From: an uncultured Pelagibacteraceae bacterium
GTDB lineage: Bacteria; Pseudomonadota; Alphaproteobacteria; Pelagibacterales; Pelagibacteraceae
Direction of reading: 5' to 3'
DNA: 44,426 nt
Assembly (NCBI GenBank): GCA_902573425.1
Contig: CACGJO010000002.1
Coordinates: 65,877-110,302, forward strand
Positions within the stretch are counted from its first letter, which is position 1, and the number at the start of each line of letters is the position of its first letter. Shown one piece after another: positions 25,700-40,075 of the stretch. The notes under the pieces are model-generated. The model was not told where the DNA came from. It saw only the letters and a list, made by a program, of their open reading frames with translations, and did no database searches. The translations under genes and the position numbers were made by a program.

Positions 25700-26579
25700 A
25701 ACAACTTTTCTTCCATTTATTTTACTTTTAATTCAGCCAATTTTTATGGCAAGTAATTTAGCTATTGCTAGAGGGGCAGTTCCATTTGTTCCACCAGTTT
25801 CTTTAGGGTTTTGGAGATGGACACTTGTATTTGTTTTCTTATTACCATTTTTTTACCAACCAATAAGAAAAAATTTTAAACATTTAAAGTCAGAGTTTTT
25901 AAAACTCCTTTTTTTAGGTTTTACCGGATGTTGTCTATGCAGCATTTTTCCTTACGTTGCAGGCAAAACTACAACTGTTTTAAACATGTCACTAATTTAC
26001 ACATCTTCCTCAATTTTTATTGTTATGCTGTCAACTTTTTTTTATAAAGAAAAAATTAATTTTCTCCAGAGCATTGGATTTCTTCTGGCATTTGTTGGCG
26101 TATTAGTTGTCATCTCAAATGGAAAATTATCAACCTTTTTAAATTTAAATTTTGTTGAAGGAGATATTTGGATTTTAGGCGCAGCAATATCGTGGGCTTT
26201 ATACTCAGTTTATGTTTTACATTGGAAATCAAAATTTAATCTATTTACAAAATTTACATTAATAGCTTTTTTTGGTTCACTTTGTTTATTTCCTTTTTAT
26301 CTTTATGAAGTATTTTATTTAGGCGATAAATTTAATTTAGAGTTAATACCCATCTTATGGATTACAATTGCAGCAATATCACCAGGTATAATTGCTTTTA
26401 TTCTTTACAGCAAAATTCAAAAATATCTAGGTGCATCAATTACTGGTTTTACATTATATTTATTTGTTGTATATGGAGCATTTTATGGAATATTTTTTTT
26501 TAACGAGGAACTTTTTGTGTCGCATTATTTAGGTGGAGCATTAGTTTTGCTTGGAGTGTATTTTGCCAAAAAAACTTAG
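25674..26579 (+). CDS. EamA/DMT-superfamily metabolite exporter
   Basis: The 301-residue protein has ten hydrophobic segments in two repeats, the drug/metabolite transporter layout. GFWRWTLVFVFLLPFF lies in repeat one, and AAISWALYSVYVLHWKSK at the start of repeat two is the EamA pattern. These carriers usually export amino acids or related metabolites; the substrate is unknown. The gene overlaps the small membrane ORF upstream. The following hydrolase ATG lies 4 bases after its stop. Confidence 0.9.
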   Translation: MKPSSKKNKTTFLPFILLLIQPIFMASNLAIARGAVPFVPPVSLGFWRWTLVFVFLLPFFYQPIRKNFKHLKSEFLKLLFLGFTGCCLCSIFPYVAGKTTTVLNMSLIYTSSSIFIVMLSTFFYKEKINFLQSIGFLLAFVGVLVVISNGKLSTFLNLNFVEGDIWILGAAISWALYSVYVLHWKSKFNLFTKFTLIAFFGSLCLFPFYLYEVFYLGDKFNLELIPILWITIAAISPGIIAFILYSKIQKYLGASITGFTLYLFVVYGAFYGIFFFNEELFVSHYLGGALVLLGVYFAKKT

Positions 26580-26583
26580 ATAT

Positions 26584-27375
26584 ATGTTTACTTTAGTAAC
26601 TATATTAATTTTATGCTACTTCCTTGTAGTAATTTTTGTATTTTTTTATCAAAGAAATCTTCTTTATCATCCGTTTGAAAATAATTATAGCTCTGACGAA
26701 GCAAGTTTCGAATATGAGGAAGTTTTTGTGCCCACATCTGAGGGAAAAGAACTAAGGGCCTGGCTTCATAAAAAAGACTTGAGAGAAAAAAAGACTTTAT
26801 TATTTTTTCATGGAAATGCTGGCGATTTAAAAAATAGAATTTATAAATTAAATTTAATTAAAGATTTTGATATAAATTTTTTGATTGTGGCTTATAGGGG
26901 TTTTAGTGGTAATGAAGGTAGTCCTTCAGAAAAAGGATTATATCAGGATGCCAAAGATTCTATAGCCTGGTTAAACGAGCAAGGAGTCAAAGATAAACAA
27001 ATTATAATTTATGGAGAATCTCTAGGAACTGGTGTTTCCGTTGAAGTTGCACAAAATAAAAATTTTGCAGGTATAATTTTAGAATCTCCTTTCACGTCGA
27101 TGGTCGAAGCTGGAAAACATTATTATTTTTATCTACCGGTTTCGCTCTTACTTAAAGACAGATATGAAACAATAAAAAAATTAAAAAATATCAAAATTCC
27201 GATTTTGGTTATGCATGGAGAAAATGATAAAATTGTTCCATTCCATATGGGTAAAAAAGTTTTTTCAGAGGCTAATGATCCCAAATATTCTTATTTTCCT
27301 AAAGATGACGATCACATGATGGAATATAACAAAAATTTATTAGAAGCTTTAAATAAATTTTTTTTATCAATATAA
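26584..27375 (+). CDS. BEM46-like alpha/beta hydrolase, membrane-anchored
   Basis: The 263-residue protein starts at the ATG at 26584; an in-frame ATG at 26551 would overlap the EamA gene by 29 bases and add no conserved sequence. A hydrophobic N-terminal anchor (about 3-20) is followed by an alpha/beta hydrolase domain: FFHGNAGD oxyanion block, nucleophile Ser146 in GESLG, Asp215 in HGENDKIVP and His244 in DDDHMMEY. The family includes YfhR/BEM46 proteins of unknown substrate. It converges on the HPP gene, with the last 9 bases overlapping. Confidence 0.9.
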   Translation: MFTLVTILILCYFLVVIFVFFYQRNLLYHPFENNYSSDEASFEYEEVFVPTSEGKELRAWLHKKDLREKKTLLFFHGNAGDLKNRIYKLNLIKDFDINFLIVAYRGFSGNEGSPSEKGLYQDAKDSIAWLNEQGVKDKQIIIYGESLGTGVSVEVAQNKNFAGIILESPFTSMVEAGKHYYFYLPVSLLLKDRYETIKKLKNIKIPILVMHGENDKIVPFHMGKKVFSEANDPKYSYFPKDDDHMMEYNKNLLEALNKFFLSI

Positions 27376-27846
27376 CCAGTTATCCCTAATAGGATATTTT
27401 CTTTTTAAAATAATTTTATTAATAAAAACTGACATTATAATAATTGCTATAGTTCCTAGTATTACCGGGAACAGAATAAATTCGAAAGAAACATCTGTAA
27501 ATAAAACTACCAAAGGATTTGATGCTGCAGGTGGATGCATAACTTTTAAATATACCATTAAAGTTACGGCTACACCGACAGCTAAACCAAGAGAGTAAAA
27601 CGAAAATCCAACTGTTTCATTAAAAATAATTCCAACTAAAACTGAGATTAAATGTCCAAAAAAAATATTTTTTGGTTGTGCTGTTTCTAGATTATGAAGT
27701 GCAAAAACTAAAAAAACAGTTGCTCCAAATGAAAACATTAGCCATACACCGGCAGACGTTCTTAAGGTTAAAAAGGCAAGAACACTTATAACTATTGATG
27801 CAGATATTCCCGATATAATTGGCTCTATTTTTTTTGGTATTTTCAT
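27367..27846 (-). CDS. HPP-family integral membrane protein
   Basis: The 159-residue protein has four membrane helices and the eponymous motif HPPAASNPLVV. Other family blocks are FSFGATVFLVFALHNLETAQP and GHLISVLVGI. HPP proteins are implicated in nitrite transport in plastids and cyanobacteria; in heterotrophs the role is unclear. The gene ends in a 9-base tail-to-tail overlap with the hydrolase and starts 2 bases after the ftsY stop, so it may be read from the dapF-ftsY transcript. Confidence 0.88.
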   Translation of the reverse strand: MKIPKKIEPIISGISASIVISVLAFLTLRTSAGVWLMFSFGATVFLVFALHNLETAQPKNIFFGHLISVLVGIIFNETVGFSFYSLGLAVGVAVTLMVYLKVMHPPAASNPLVVLFTDVSFEFILFPVILGTIAIIIMSVFINKIILKRKYPIRDNWLY

Positions 27847-35818: not shown

Positions 35819-36826
35819 ATGAATTTTGCGATAATTGGTGCCACCGGCAACGTCGGGAGAAAAACTATTGAAATTTTAGAGAAATCTAATATTCAAATTT
35901 CAAACCTTTTTTTAGTTGCTTCAGAAAAAAGTAAAGGAAAAAAAATTAAATTTAAAGGCAAAGAAATACAAATAGAAAGTCTCAAAACATATGATTTTTC
36001 TAAGGCGCAAATAACTTTTTTTGCCGCTGGAGGAAAAATAGCAGAGGAATGGGTTCCAAAAGCTAGTAAAAAAACTGTTGTTATAGATAATTCTAAAGTA
36101 TTTAGAATGGACAAGGATGTTCCATTGATCGTACCTGAGGTCAATCCTAATAAATTATCAATGTATAAAAATAAAAATATTATTGCTAATCCAAACTGTT
36201 CAACGATACAAATGGTAGTTGCCCTGAAGCCACTACATGAAAACTTTAATATAAAAAGAGTAATAGTCTCCACTTATCAGTCTGTATCTGGTGCAGGGAA
36301 AGCACCTATGGATGAACTTATTAGTCAAACTAAAGAATATTTGGAAGAAAAAAAAATTAATTCTAAAAATTTTACAAAACAAATAGCTTTTAATTTAATA
36401 CCTCATATCGATGAATTTAAGGATGAGGGCTATACCCGTGAAGAATGGAAGATGATTTCTGAAACTAAAAAAATTCTTGATCCAAAAATTAATTTAACAG
36501 CAACCTGTGTAAGAGTTCCTGTTATGATATCTCACGCAGAGTCACTTAATGTCGAATTTGAAAAGTCTTTTGACTTAAAAAAGGTTAGAGATATTTTAGA
36601 TAAAGCAGATGGATGCAAAGTTGTTGATGAAAGGAAAAACGGTGGATATACAACACCAGTAGAGGCAGAAAATAAAAACCTCACCTTTATTTCTAGAATT
36701 AGAAAAGATAACTCGAGAGATAACGCTCTAAATATGTGGGTCGTTTCTGACAATTTACTTAAAGGTGCCGCATTGAATACAGTACAAATTGCTGAAAGGT
36801 TAATTAAAGATTTTTATGGAAAATAA
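35819..36826 (+). CDS. asd: Aspartate-semialdehyde dehydrogenase
   Basis: The 335-residue protein opens with the Rossmann loop IIGATGNVGRKTIEIL. The catalytic Cys127 is in NPNCSTIQMVVAL, and the TYQSVSGAGKAPMDEL block and the HIDEFKDEGYTREEWK block are typical. It reduces aspartyl phosphate to the semialdehyde that feeds lysine/diaminopimelate, threonine and methionine synthesis, and so links to dapF in this window. Its 3' end overlaps sdhC by 11 bases, an uncommon arrangement that ties amino-acid and respiratory genes. Confidence 0.97.
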   Translation: MNFAIIGATGNVGRKTIEILEKSNIQISNLFLVASEKSKGKKIKFKGKEIQIESLKTYDFSKAQITFFAAGGKIAEEWVPKASKKTVVIDNSKVFRMDKDVPLIVPEVNPNKLSMYKNKNIIANPNCSTIQMVVALKPLHENFNIKRVIVSTYQSVSGAGKAPMDELISQTKEYLEEKKINSKNFTKQIAFNLIPHIDEFKDEGYTREEWKMISETKKILDPKINLTATCVRVPVMISHAESLNVEFEKSFDLKKVRDILDKADGCKVVDERKNGGYTTPVEAENKNLTFISRIRKDNSRDNALNMWVVSDNLLKGAALNTVQIAERLIKDFYGK

Positions 36827-37193
36827 TAATAATCCTCTATCACCACATCTTCAGGTTTATAGATGGCATATATCATCCTTACTTTCTATTACACATAGAA
36901 TTGTTGGTATTATAAATTTTTTAAGCATCATCATTATTCTATTTTTATTAATTCTAATTGGTTCGGATAAAAATTTTTTTGAAATTTTTTCTGAAACTTT
37001 TATAGGAAAATTTATTATTATTTCTTTATGTTGGTCTTTCAGTTTTCAAATTTTAAATGAAATAAGACATCTAGCATGGGATATGGGTTATGGATTTGAT
37101 CTAAAAGTATCTTATATATCAGGAATAGCAACTATAATTGGATCTTTTTTATTAGCAATTTTATTTTATTTTATTGGAAAGAATATAATCTGA
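36816..37193 (+). CDS. sdhC: Succinate dehydrogenase cytochrome b556 subunit SdhC
   Basis: The 125-residue protein has three membrane helices. PLSPHLQVYRWHISSLLSITHR is cut in two recognisable parts: the N-terminal PHLQVYR and the quinone-site SITHR (Ser24, His27, Arg28). The third block FQILNEIRHLAWDMG corresponds to the family's FHxxxGIRHLxWDxG. The histidine that normally binds heme b (E. coli His84) is Gln78 here, and the Gly after it is Glu82; the following His85 is kept. SdhC and SdhD anchor SdhAB and reduce ubiquinone. The start overlaps asd. Confidence 0.93.
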   Translation: MENNNNPLSPHLQVYRWHISSLLSITHRIVGIINFLSIIIILFLLILIGSDKNFFEIFSETFIGKFIIISLCWSFSFQILNEIRHLAWDMGYGFDLKVSYISGIATIIGSFLLAILFYFIGKNII

Positions 37194-37194
37194 A

Positions 37195-37518
37195 ATGATC
37201 AAAGCAACTCGTAAATGGTTAACAATTAAAATTTCCTCAGGATTACTAATTCCTTTTATGGCCTGGTTTATTATAAACCTTGTAACCGCATTTAATGCTA
37301 ATAATTCTCAATTAATAGATTTTGCCTCAAGCATTACAACTAAAATTTTGATGTCTATATTTATAATATTAGCCTTCACCTTTTATACACTTACAATAAG
37401 CGAGGTTTTTGAAGACTATATTAACAACTTAAAACTCAAAAATGCCGCAAATAGATTACTTGTTTTATTTAGTATAATAATCACATTAGTATTATTATTT
37501 TTTTTAATTAAAACTTAA
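37195..37518 (+). CDS. sdhD: Succinate dehydrogenase membrane anchor subunit SdhD
   Basis: The 107-residue protein has three hydrophobic helices. Recognisable parts are [20 protein letters not shown] near the start and the EVFEDYINN block, which matches the conserved D-Y of SdhD (Asp74-Tyr75). There is no histidine in the whole protein; the position of the heme-b ligand (11 residues before the Asp; E. coli His71) is Phe63, with Tyr64 next to it. Identity is supported by topology and position between sdhC and sdhA. Confidence 0.9.
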
Positions 37519-37523
37519 TTTTT

Positions 37524-39299
37524 ATGAGCAAATATAAAATTATAGATCATGAATATGATGTTGTAGTTCTCGGAGCCGGAGGATCAGGTTTAAGAGCTGC
37601 TGTTGGACTTTCAGAGTCAGGTTTAAAAACCGCATGTATATCGAAAGTGTTTCCAACAAGAAGTCATACTTCAGCAGCGCAAGGAGGTATATCTGCCGCC
37701 CTTGGAAATATGGGAGAAGATGATTGGAGATGGCACATGTACGATACAGTCAAAGGATCTGATTGGCTAGGAGATCAAGATGCAATCGAGCACCTTTGTA
37801 AAGAGGCACCCAAAGCTGTCATCGAATTAGAAAAATATGGTGTACCGTTTAGCAGAACAAAGGAAGGAAAAATTTATCAACGTGCTTTTGGAGGTATGAC
37901 TAAAAATTATGGAAATGACTCAGTACAAAGAACATGTGCTGCTGCTGACAGAACGGGACACGCAATTTTACATACTTTATATGGACAAGCTTTAAAACAT
38001 AACACCGAATTTTTTATAGAGTATTTTGCTTTAGATCTTTTAATGAAAAACGGAGAGTGCAAAGGATTAATAGCTTGGAATTTGAATGATGGAACTATTC
38101 ACAGATTTAGATCACACATAACTATTATCGCAACTGGTGGGTACGGCAAAGTTTATTACACCGCAACATCTGCCCATACTTGTACTGGTGACGGAAATGC
38201 TATGGCTTTAAGAGCGGGTCTTCCATTACAAGATATGGAGTTTGTTCAATTTCATCCTACAGGGATTTACGGAGTTGGAACATTAATATCCGAAGGTGTT
38301 AGAGGTGAAGGTGGCTTTCTTTTAAATTCAAAAGGAGAAAGATTCATGGAGAAGTATGCTCCAAAGGCAAAAGATTTAGCCTCGAGGGACGTAGTTAGCA
38401 GATCAATAGCAGTTGAGATCAACGAAGGTAGAGGGGTTGGAAAAAATAAAGACTATGTGAATCTTCATCTAGATCATTTAGACCCAAAAGTTATCGAAGA
38501 AAGATTACCTGGAATAGCGGAGTCTGCCAAAACTTTTTGTGAGGTTGACGTAAGAAAGGATCCAATTCCAGTAGTTCCAACAGTACATTATAATATGGGA
38601 GGAATACCAACAAATTACAAAGCAGAAGTTTTGACATTAAATGGCAAAGAGTCCACAGTCCCTGGGTTGATGGCGATAGGAGAGGCAGCGTGTGTTTCAG
38701 TTCATGGTGCAAATAGATTAGGATCAAACTCTTTAATCGATCTGGTAGTTTTTGGAAAATCTGCCGCAAATAGAGCTGCTGAGCTCGTAAAACCTGGTAC
38801 TCCTCATGAAGAATTATCACAAAGTGAAACAGATAAGTGTTTAGATCGTTTTGATAAGCTTCGAAACTCCAATGGATCTACAAAAACTTCTGAGCTAAGA
38901 TTATCTATGCAGAAAACTATGCAATCTAAATGTGCTGTTTTTAGAACAGAAAAAACCTTAAAGGAGGGAATGGACCAAATAAGAAAACCTTTCGAGGGCA
39001 TGGAAGATATATCAGTTACAGACAAATCATTATTATTTAATACAGATCTAGTTGAGACTCTTGAGTTTGATAACTTAATAAGGCAAGCAATGACCACAAT
39101 AGACTCAGCTTACCATAGAAAAGAGAGCAGAGGAGCTCATGCAAGAGAAGATTATAAAAAAAGAGATGACAAAAAATATATGACCCATACTTTAGCCTGG
39201 CAAAAGGGAAGTGATGTAAAAGTAGATTATAGACCAGTGCATTCAAAAACTTTAACAAATGATGTACAATATTTTCCACCAAGAGAAAGAGTTTATTAA
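37524..39299 (+). CDS. sdhA: Succinate dehydrogenase flavoprotein subunit SdhA
   Basis: The 591-residue length is standard. [20 protein letters not shown] is the FAD loop, and the covalent FAD histidine lies in [12 protein letters not shown]. Active-site blocks [24 protein letters not shown] and [18 protein letters not shown] are intact. It oxidises succinate to fumarate in the TCA cycle. Its stop codon overlaps the sdhB start by one base. Confidence 0.98.
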
Positions 39300-40075
39300 T
39301 GGTTCAGTTTAGCCTTCCTCAAAATTCAAAAATTTTAAAAGGCAAATATTTTAAAGACAAATCAGGATCAACAAATATCAAAAAAGTTAACGTTTATAGA
39401 TGGAGCCCATCTAGCAAGGAAAATCCAAGAATTGATACCTTCGAAATAAATATTAAAGAATGTGGACCAAAAGTTCTAGATATACTTTTCAAAATTAAAA
39501 ATGAAATAGATCCTAGCTTGACCTTCAGAAGGTCTTGTGCTCATGGTGTTTGCGGTTCTTGCGCAATGAATGTTGATGGAGTCAATACTTTATCTTGTAT
39601 AAAATCTCATTCTGATATTAAAGGAGATTTAAATATTTACCCTTTACCTCATTTGAAGGTAGTTAAGGATTTAGTTGGTGATCTAAGCACTCTATATAAA
39701 CAATATGAGTCTGTCGAACCATGGCTTAAAACAACAGCTGGGGAAAAAACATCAGTTGAAATTCAACAGTCTCAAGAAGATAGAGCAAAATTAGACGGCT
39801 ACTATGAATGCATACTTTGTGCTTGTTGTTCGACTTCATGCCCAAGTTATTGGTGGAATGGCGACAAATATTTAGGACCAGCTGTTTTATTACAAGCTTA
39901 TAGATGGATTACAGATAGCAGAGATCAAGAAAGAAAAGCTAGACTTAAAAAAGTTGCAGATGAATTAAAACTATATAGGTGCCATACAATAATGAATTGT
40001 ACTAGTTCATGTCCTAAGGGTTTAAATCCAGCTAAAGCAATAGCATCTATTAAAAAAATGCTTGCAACAAGTTAA
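39299..40075 (+). CDS. sdhB: Succinate dehydrogenase iron-sulfur subunit SdhB
   Basis: The 258-residue protein has an N-terminal ferredoxin domain with [18 protein letters not shown] and a later LSC (2Fe-2S). The C-terminal domain has [16 protein letters not shown] and [17 protein letters not shown] for the 4Fe-4S and 3Fe-4S clusters. It passes electrons from SdhA to quinone at SdhCD. All cluster cysteines look intact, in contrast to the lost heme ligands in the anchor. Confidence 0.98.

Follow-up and report, generated by a model that had tools for sequence, protein, structure and literature searches.

The sdhCDAB locus and its heme-ligand positions

The window, by which we mean the whole stretch of 44,426 nucleotides analysed here, comes from a SAR11 genome of 986 kb that is 79.5% complete; the closest relatives with a name are isolates of uncultured Pelagibacteraceae, of the single-cell type. 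It encodes a complete set of succinate dehydrogenase (SDH, EC 1.3.5.1) subunits, all four of which score above the curated NCBIfam cut-offs:

36816..37193, + strand: sdhC, membrane anchor subunit C of 125 aa (cytochrome b556-type family; TIGR02970, 3.6e-29; Pfam PF01127)
37195..37518, + strand: sdhD, membrane anchor subunit D of 107 aa (TIGR02968, 5.6e-11)
37524..39299, + strand: sdhA, flavoprotein (TIGR01816, 2e-284), with the covalent-FAD His48 present
39299..40075, + strand: sdhB, Fe-S subunit (NF004616/TIGR00384), with all cluster cysteines and His229 (E. coli His207) present

An asd gene, named from its own sequence, lies in the window in the same direction as sdhCDAB. Elsewhere in the window, two open reading frames (26551-27375, + strand; 27367-27846, - strand), flanked by an EamA-like transporter and ftsY, had no NCBIfam match at 1e-10.

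By protein family and by predicted structure, the anchor consists of two subunits with three transmembrane helices each, homologous to SdhC and SdhD, as in class (type) C succinate:quinone reductases (SQR). The AlphaFold2 model of SdhC (pLDDT 84) matched E. coli SdhC with a Z-score of 13.9, with a large overall RMSD and a low-confidence N-terminus, and the predicted SdhD model (pLDDT 93) matched E. coli SdhD with a Z-score of 13.1; both models are of single subunits rather than of the complex. A sequence search for SdhD relatives in the PDB returned only a chance match to bacteriorhodopsin. We also searched the window’s genome, at its 79.5% completeness, for a second, heme-bearing sdhC and found none beyond the single copy.

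Nearly all class C enzymes hold heme b between two axial histidines, one from SdhC and one from SdhD. Using E. coli K-12 SdhC and SdhD (from NC_000913) as the alignment reference, we located the corresponding and neighbouring pocket positions:

37047..37049, + strand: codon CAA of SdhC Gln78, at the position of the E. coli heme ligand SdhC His84 (alignments)
37059..37061, + strand: codon of SdhC Glu82, aligned with E. coli Gly88 (ligand +4)
37228..37230, + strand: codon of SdhD Lys12, aligned with E. coli Arg20 (at the distal heme propionate)
37381..37383, + strand: codon TTT of SdhD Phe63, at the position of the E. coli heme ligand SdhD His71 (alignments and SdhD model)
37393..37395, + strand: codon of SdhD Thr67, aligned with E. 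coli Gly75 (ligand +4); the yeast counterpart is Sdh4 Glu112

Both axial histidines are thus replaced, by glutamine and phenylalanine. The heme-ligand histidine of avian SDHC likewise aligns with Gln78 (phmmer). Residues 3-107 of the SdhD model superpose on residues 11-115 of E. coli SdhD over 105 aligned positions, and because this superposition has no gaps, Phe63 sits on His71. The first-pass annotation had placed Gln78 and Phe63 at the ligand positions, which both the sequence and the predicted SdhD structure confirm; its statement that SdhD contains no histidine at all also holds, the count being zero.

Ligand loss in SAR11 and beyond

Ligand states are written below as SdhC84+88/SdhD71+75 in E. 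coli numbering. SAR11 counts refer to loci, as some genomes recur across collections. In one large SAR11 group, none of the 135 loci sampled has the SdhD histidine, and both ligands are missing from 95 loci in all, including that of the window. At the genus level, it is absent from every sampled genome of g1 (the window’s genus; one suspect genome apart), g3, g4 and g14. Genus g1 comprises 23 loci with QE/FT, three with HE/FT and one genome with two HG/HG loci. All 42 of the 42 g3 loci have QE with F or Y; the sequence of a single cell named Candidatus Pelagibacter ubique (L099) is closely similar. In g4, 20 loci show HE with F or Y and one shows QE/FT, while g14 has QE/NA. Genera g2, g5, g6, g8, g9 and g12 keep both histidines. 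Because dozens of genomes that were sequenced independently, many from single cells, share the ligand-less state, it reflects neither chance nor sequencing error. Alignment across Pelagibacterales and other alphaproteobacteria, a check that the first-pass annotation had suggested, reveals a clade-wide loss and not the quirk of a single genome.

The HG/HG genome labelled g1 (G001; loci L028 and L038, contig C25) carries sdhCD genes close to those of the g2 locus L129. The contig is short and the genome is broken into 90 contigs, so that mis-binning or gene replacement may account for this.

A tree of the N-terminus of SdhA, whose gene lies outside the pocket, requires seven changes at SdhD71 and eight at SdhC84. 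In this tree the ligand-bearing genera g2, g6 and g8 are nested, with modest support, inside the clade lacking the SdhD histidine, and a single SAR11 clade without this histidine is not rejected (AU p 0.49). The SdhD histidine would thus have been lost in one or a few events within SAR11. Within the lineages lacking it, the SdhC histidine changed to glutamine, a one-base change, several times. The simplest reading of these sequences is that loss of the SdhD histidine, together with SdhC Glu88 and SdhD Thr/Ser75, would have come first, followed later by repeated His-to-Gln changes in SdhC. A second SAR11 family, f2 (g15, g17, L235-L249; L234 represents g18), lost the opposite ligand and kept the SdhD histidine; its SdhC84 is Tyr (15/15) or Asn, and SdhC88 is Cys, Ser or Asp.

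Outside Pelagibacterales, we surveyed 167 alphaproteobacterial genomes from 125 families. The sampling leaned towards small genomes and skipped some second family members, so that rates are approximate, and SdhD in GC-rich genomes was read from HMM envelopes. Both histidines are present in 161 of the 167. The remaining six genomes, from five families, have lost one or both ligands (YE/HE twice, YG/HE, YS/HE, YT/VE and HG/YS); SdhD of the YT/VE genome (L283) is a weak match. All six are at most 2.0 Mb in size (Fisher p 0.0018 by genome, 0.006 by family). These losses arose independently.

Several small-genome alphaproteobacteria (L280, L281, L283, L275 and L276) combine SdhC Tyr84 with Glu at SdhD75, the glycine that matches yeast Glu112, and L280 and L281 have Glu at both glycines. 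A pair of genomes of about 1.4 Mb in genus g158 of family f140 differs at the SdhD ligand: L257 (1465-2254, + strand) has His with Gly at +4, and L258 (1098-1875, - strand) has Tyr with Ser. This pair represents a recent natural loss of a heme ligand.

Overall, Glu occurs at SdhC88 or SdhD75 in five of seven loss families (140/158 loci), against none of the 145 retaining families (0/227 loci), L396 being excluded. This locus came from a further survey of 30 small and mid-size proteobacterial genomes, in which it was the one alphaproteobacterium and had lost the SdhD histidine; with state HC/YG, it has Tyr at the SdhD ligand position and Cys at SdhC +4, in a 1.5 Mb genome (G702) of a family with mostly 6 Mb genomes. 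No ligand loss was found among the small and mid-size beta- and gammaproteobacteria searched: SdhC His and Gly are present in 28/28 readable genomes, and in the 22 of these in which SdhD was read, all have His and Gly.

A rebuilt pocket beside a conserved quinone site

To compare the pocket between states, we used 98 unique Pelagibacteraceae sequences lacking the SdhD histidine and 36 unique ligand-bearing ones. SdhC88 is Glu in 98/98 of the former and Gly in 36/36 of the latter, and SdhD20 is Lys in 94/98 versus Arg in 36/36. SdhD19 is Leu, Ile, Thr or Met rather than Gln or His, and SdhD23 is Ser or Gly rather than Ala; in the sequences lacking the histidine, moreover, SdhD75 has changed from Gly to Thr or Ser and the Lys/Arg at SdhD73 is gone. 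The columns that best separate the groups are SdhC88, SdhD19, SdhD71, SdhD73, SdhD23, SdhD72, SdhD20 and a few others. In the E. coli enzyme, SdhD19, SdhD20, SdhD23 and SdhC38 contact the heme (PMC3290573), and four of the seven published contact positions fall among the top 15 separating columns (hypergeometric p 4e-4, indicative only because the contact set was assembled after the list was seen). The invariance of Glu88 in 98/98 sequences indicates that the new state is itself under strong constraint. Loss of a +4 glycine alone is not diagnostic, since a few lineages with both histidines show it too.

On the quinone side, by contrast, positions SdhC27, 31, 91 and 95 and SdhD78, 82 and 83, which line the quinone site and the propionates, are 100% conserved in both groups. 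In the window, Ser24, His27, Arg28, His85 and Asp89 of SdhC and Glu70, Asp74 and Tyr75 of SdhD are all present. SdhB has every cluster cysteine, His229 and Trp186, and SdhA has the FAD histidine and the catalytic residues, bar one conservative Thr-to-Ser change. Residue checks thus uphold the earlier claim that quinone-site residues and SdhB cluster cysteines are retained. Both anchor genes are under purifying selection: among close relatives, most of the informative pairs give dN/dS values of about 0.1-0.25 for sdhC and sdhD, and the values from a few very close pairs are noisy.

That the SdhC/SdhD pair is decaying and no longer serves an SDH in vivo is hardly credible. Nothing beyond the ligand loss itself speaks for it, and it is at odds with these dN/dS values, with intact sdhCD reading frames in the large majority of relatives, with full conservation of the quinone site, and with a single copy adjoining intact sdhAB.

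It is improbable, though less remote, that heme b is still bound, either through a substitute ligand (SdhC His27, His85, Gln78 or a Met) or with no axial ligands. Mutants of the E. coli enzyme with a single ligand can keep their heme, to judge from the title of Maklashina et al. 2001 as cited in PMC13066397; for the same reason, SAR11 relatives with one ligand left might still bind it. The residues that surround the propionates (SdhC His27, Arg28 and His85, and SdhD Glu70) are also kept. However, these histidines and the arginine are quinone-site residues that are equally conserved in relatives with both ligands, and SdhD offers no histidine. With Glu in place of Gly88 and Thr in place of Gly75 the pocket becomes bulkier, and SdhD19, 20 and 23 change alongside. 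Yeast complex II, moreover, has one ligand left and no heme (PMC13066397). A substitute histidine, which the first-pass annotation had named as one finding that would speak against a heme-free enzyme, is therefore unsupported: His85 and His27 are ordinary quinone-site and propionate histidines, as conserved in heme-bearing relatives as here.

We consider the window enzyme a class C succinate:ubiquinone reductase by descent that has lost heme b, with its pocket refilled and its quinone site and catalysis intact, and assign this reading a probability of about 0.85. Heme is very likely absent from the window enzyme, judging from its sequence. The earlier suggestion of a working quinone reductase without heme is thus strongly supported by the clade-wide loss, the changed heme contacts, the kept quinone-site and catalytic residues, and purifying selection. 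Since electron flow does not need heme, as an active heme-free E. coli variant illustrates, a working heme-free class C enzyme is the best explanation. Conserved residues and known chemistry suggest that electrons would pass from FAD through the 2Fe-2S, 4Fe-4S and 3Fe-4S clusters to quinone, bypassing the heme. The cavity between SdhC and SdhD would be refilled by Phe or Tyr for SdhD His71 and, in many lineages, Gln for SdhC His84, and one helical turn further on by Glu (SdhC) and Thr or Ser (SdhD) for the glycines. The substitutions themselves are observed; they are strictly coupled and follow a stepwise pattern across the phylogeny. The carboxylate of SdhC Glu88 would then sit where a propionate of the heme would be, forming a pair with Lys20 of SdhD (both in E. 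coli numbering). Lys20 is the expected partner because SdhC Arg31 and SdhD Arg20 of E. coli are symmetry equivalents (PMC3290573); homology and pseudo-symmetry suggest that such a pairing may form. We give even odds to the wider proposal that most of the SAR11 core has a heme-free complex II in which SdhC Glu88, with SdhD Lys20, replaces the distal propionate, and that the same swap arose several times, at one or the other of two symmetry-related glycines, in small-genome alphaproteobacteria.

As to cause, the loss is specific to complex II, because the window’s genome and ten SAR11 relatives contain ferrochelatase and the cytochrome b family (PF00033); heme is still made and used elsewhere in the organism. 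An adaptation that economises on iron in the low-iron open ocean, which the first-pass annotation had raised as a possibility, seems doubtful to us. Each complex holds 2+4+3 Fe in its clusters and one in its heme, 10 in total, and the saving would be at most 1/10 of the Fe per complex. SAR11 lacks siderophore and heme uptake systems (PMC4771312) and lives in an iron-poor habitat, and the loss is fixed in a lineage in which selection would be expected to be effective. Against this, both ligands persist in some SAR11 genera, the remaining heme machinery is intact, and independent losses occurred in yeast and in other alphaproteobacteria with small genomes and of unknown habitat. Because the trait varies among SAR11 genera, any iron benefit would be measurable.

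We see about an even chance, instead, that the enzyme could do without heme and that reduced genomes shed it as constraint relaxed, while compensating substitutions in the pocket, fixed alongside, kept the anchor stable. The small size of all six loss genomes outside Pelagibacterales fits this account, as do the recurrent one-base changes of SdhC His to Gln in lineages without the SdhD histidine and the dispensability of heme for catalysis in E. coli (PMC3290573). The invariance of Glu88, which shows that the new state is strongly constrained, and the lack of losses in the 28 readable beta- and gammaproteobacterial genomes count against it. Genome reduction explains the distribution as well as iron saving does.

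Comparison with known complexes II

A heme-free complex II is already known from yeast (PMC13066397) and ciliates (PMC10227065); in the open literature, to which our search was confined, we found no report on the heme status of SAR11 SDH or on the bacterial Glu signature. What heme b does in complex II has long been debated, whether it acts as a structural brace, an electron buffer or a guard against ROS. SAR11 offers a natural experiment here, with close free-living relatives that carry both, one or no ligands on the same catalytic core. Our reading predicts that some of the ocean’s most abundant respiratory enzymes lack the cofactor implied by their annotation as “cytochrome b556 subunit”. 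Ligand loss combined with a Gly-to-Glu change at the ligand +4 position of either subunit could serve as a signature of heme-free complex II in genomes.

The overall architecture is that of class C SQR, represented by E. coli SdhCDAB and by porcine, avian and human complex II, with which the window shares the sdhCDAB operon, the 3+3 transmembrane anchor, the fold (Z-scores of 13-14 to E. coli SdhC and SdhD) and the quinone-site, FAD and Fe-S residues. Unlike these enzymes, the window lacks both axial histidines, has Glu and Thr at the +4 glycines and has Lys for SdhD Arg20. The E. coli ligand mutants (SdhC His84Met, 2WU2; SdhD His71Met, 2WU5) resemble it in their altered ligand positions, but these and the heme-free variant of Tran et al. 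2007 are engineered and lack the natural pocket compensation. A heme-free E. coli variant nonetheless has substantial activity and supports growth on succinate, according to PMC3290573.

The class D enzymes, which have no heme (PMC10238741), include E. coli FrdABCD; it too has two anchor subunits, and heme is absent there and predicted to be absent here. FrdD is more distant, however, with Z-scores of 9.3-9.8 compared with 13-14 for SdhC and SdhD, and the window anchors belong to TIGR02970 and TIGR02968, with no FrdC or FrdD among their NCBIfam or Pfam matches. The SAR11 state thus appears to be a secondary loss inside class C and not class D by descent. Tetrahymena thermophila complex II, also heme-free and assigned to type D (PMC10227065), is similar in its two anchor subunits, its kept quinone site and its lack of heme b, again a predicted feature here, but its anchor is highly divergent and holds cardiolipin at the heme position.

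A parallel in ligand state is S. cerevisiae, whose complex II has no heme by cryo-EM (PMC13066397). The SdhC-type histidine is kept there, the SdhD ligand is Tyr108, and the +4 glycine of Sdh4 is replaced by Glu112, whose carboxylate substitutes for a propionate of the heme opposite Arg97 (PMC13066397), which we take as the equivalent of E. coli SdhC Arg31. Both systems are class C by homology, with an aromatic residue at the SdhD ligand position (Tyr in yeast, Phe or Tyr in SAR11) and a replaced SdhD75 glycine; in the window these are Phe63 and Thr67. The SAR11 locus L169 has yeast’s exact His/Tyr ligand pair, and the SAR11 H/F variants have a similar ligand state. Yeast, however, carries its Glu on Sdh4 and keeps the SdhC-type histidine, whereas SAR11 has Glu at the pseudo-symmetric SdhC88, and the window has Thr at the SdhD +4 position and has lost the SdhC histidine as well. 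The proposed SAR11 Glu-Lys pair would therefore be a mirror image of the Sdh4 Glu112-Sdh3 Arg97 pair of yeast.
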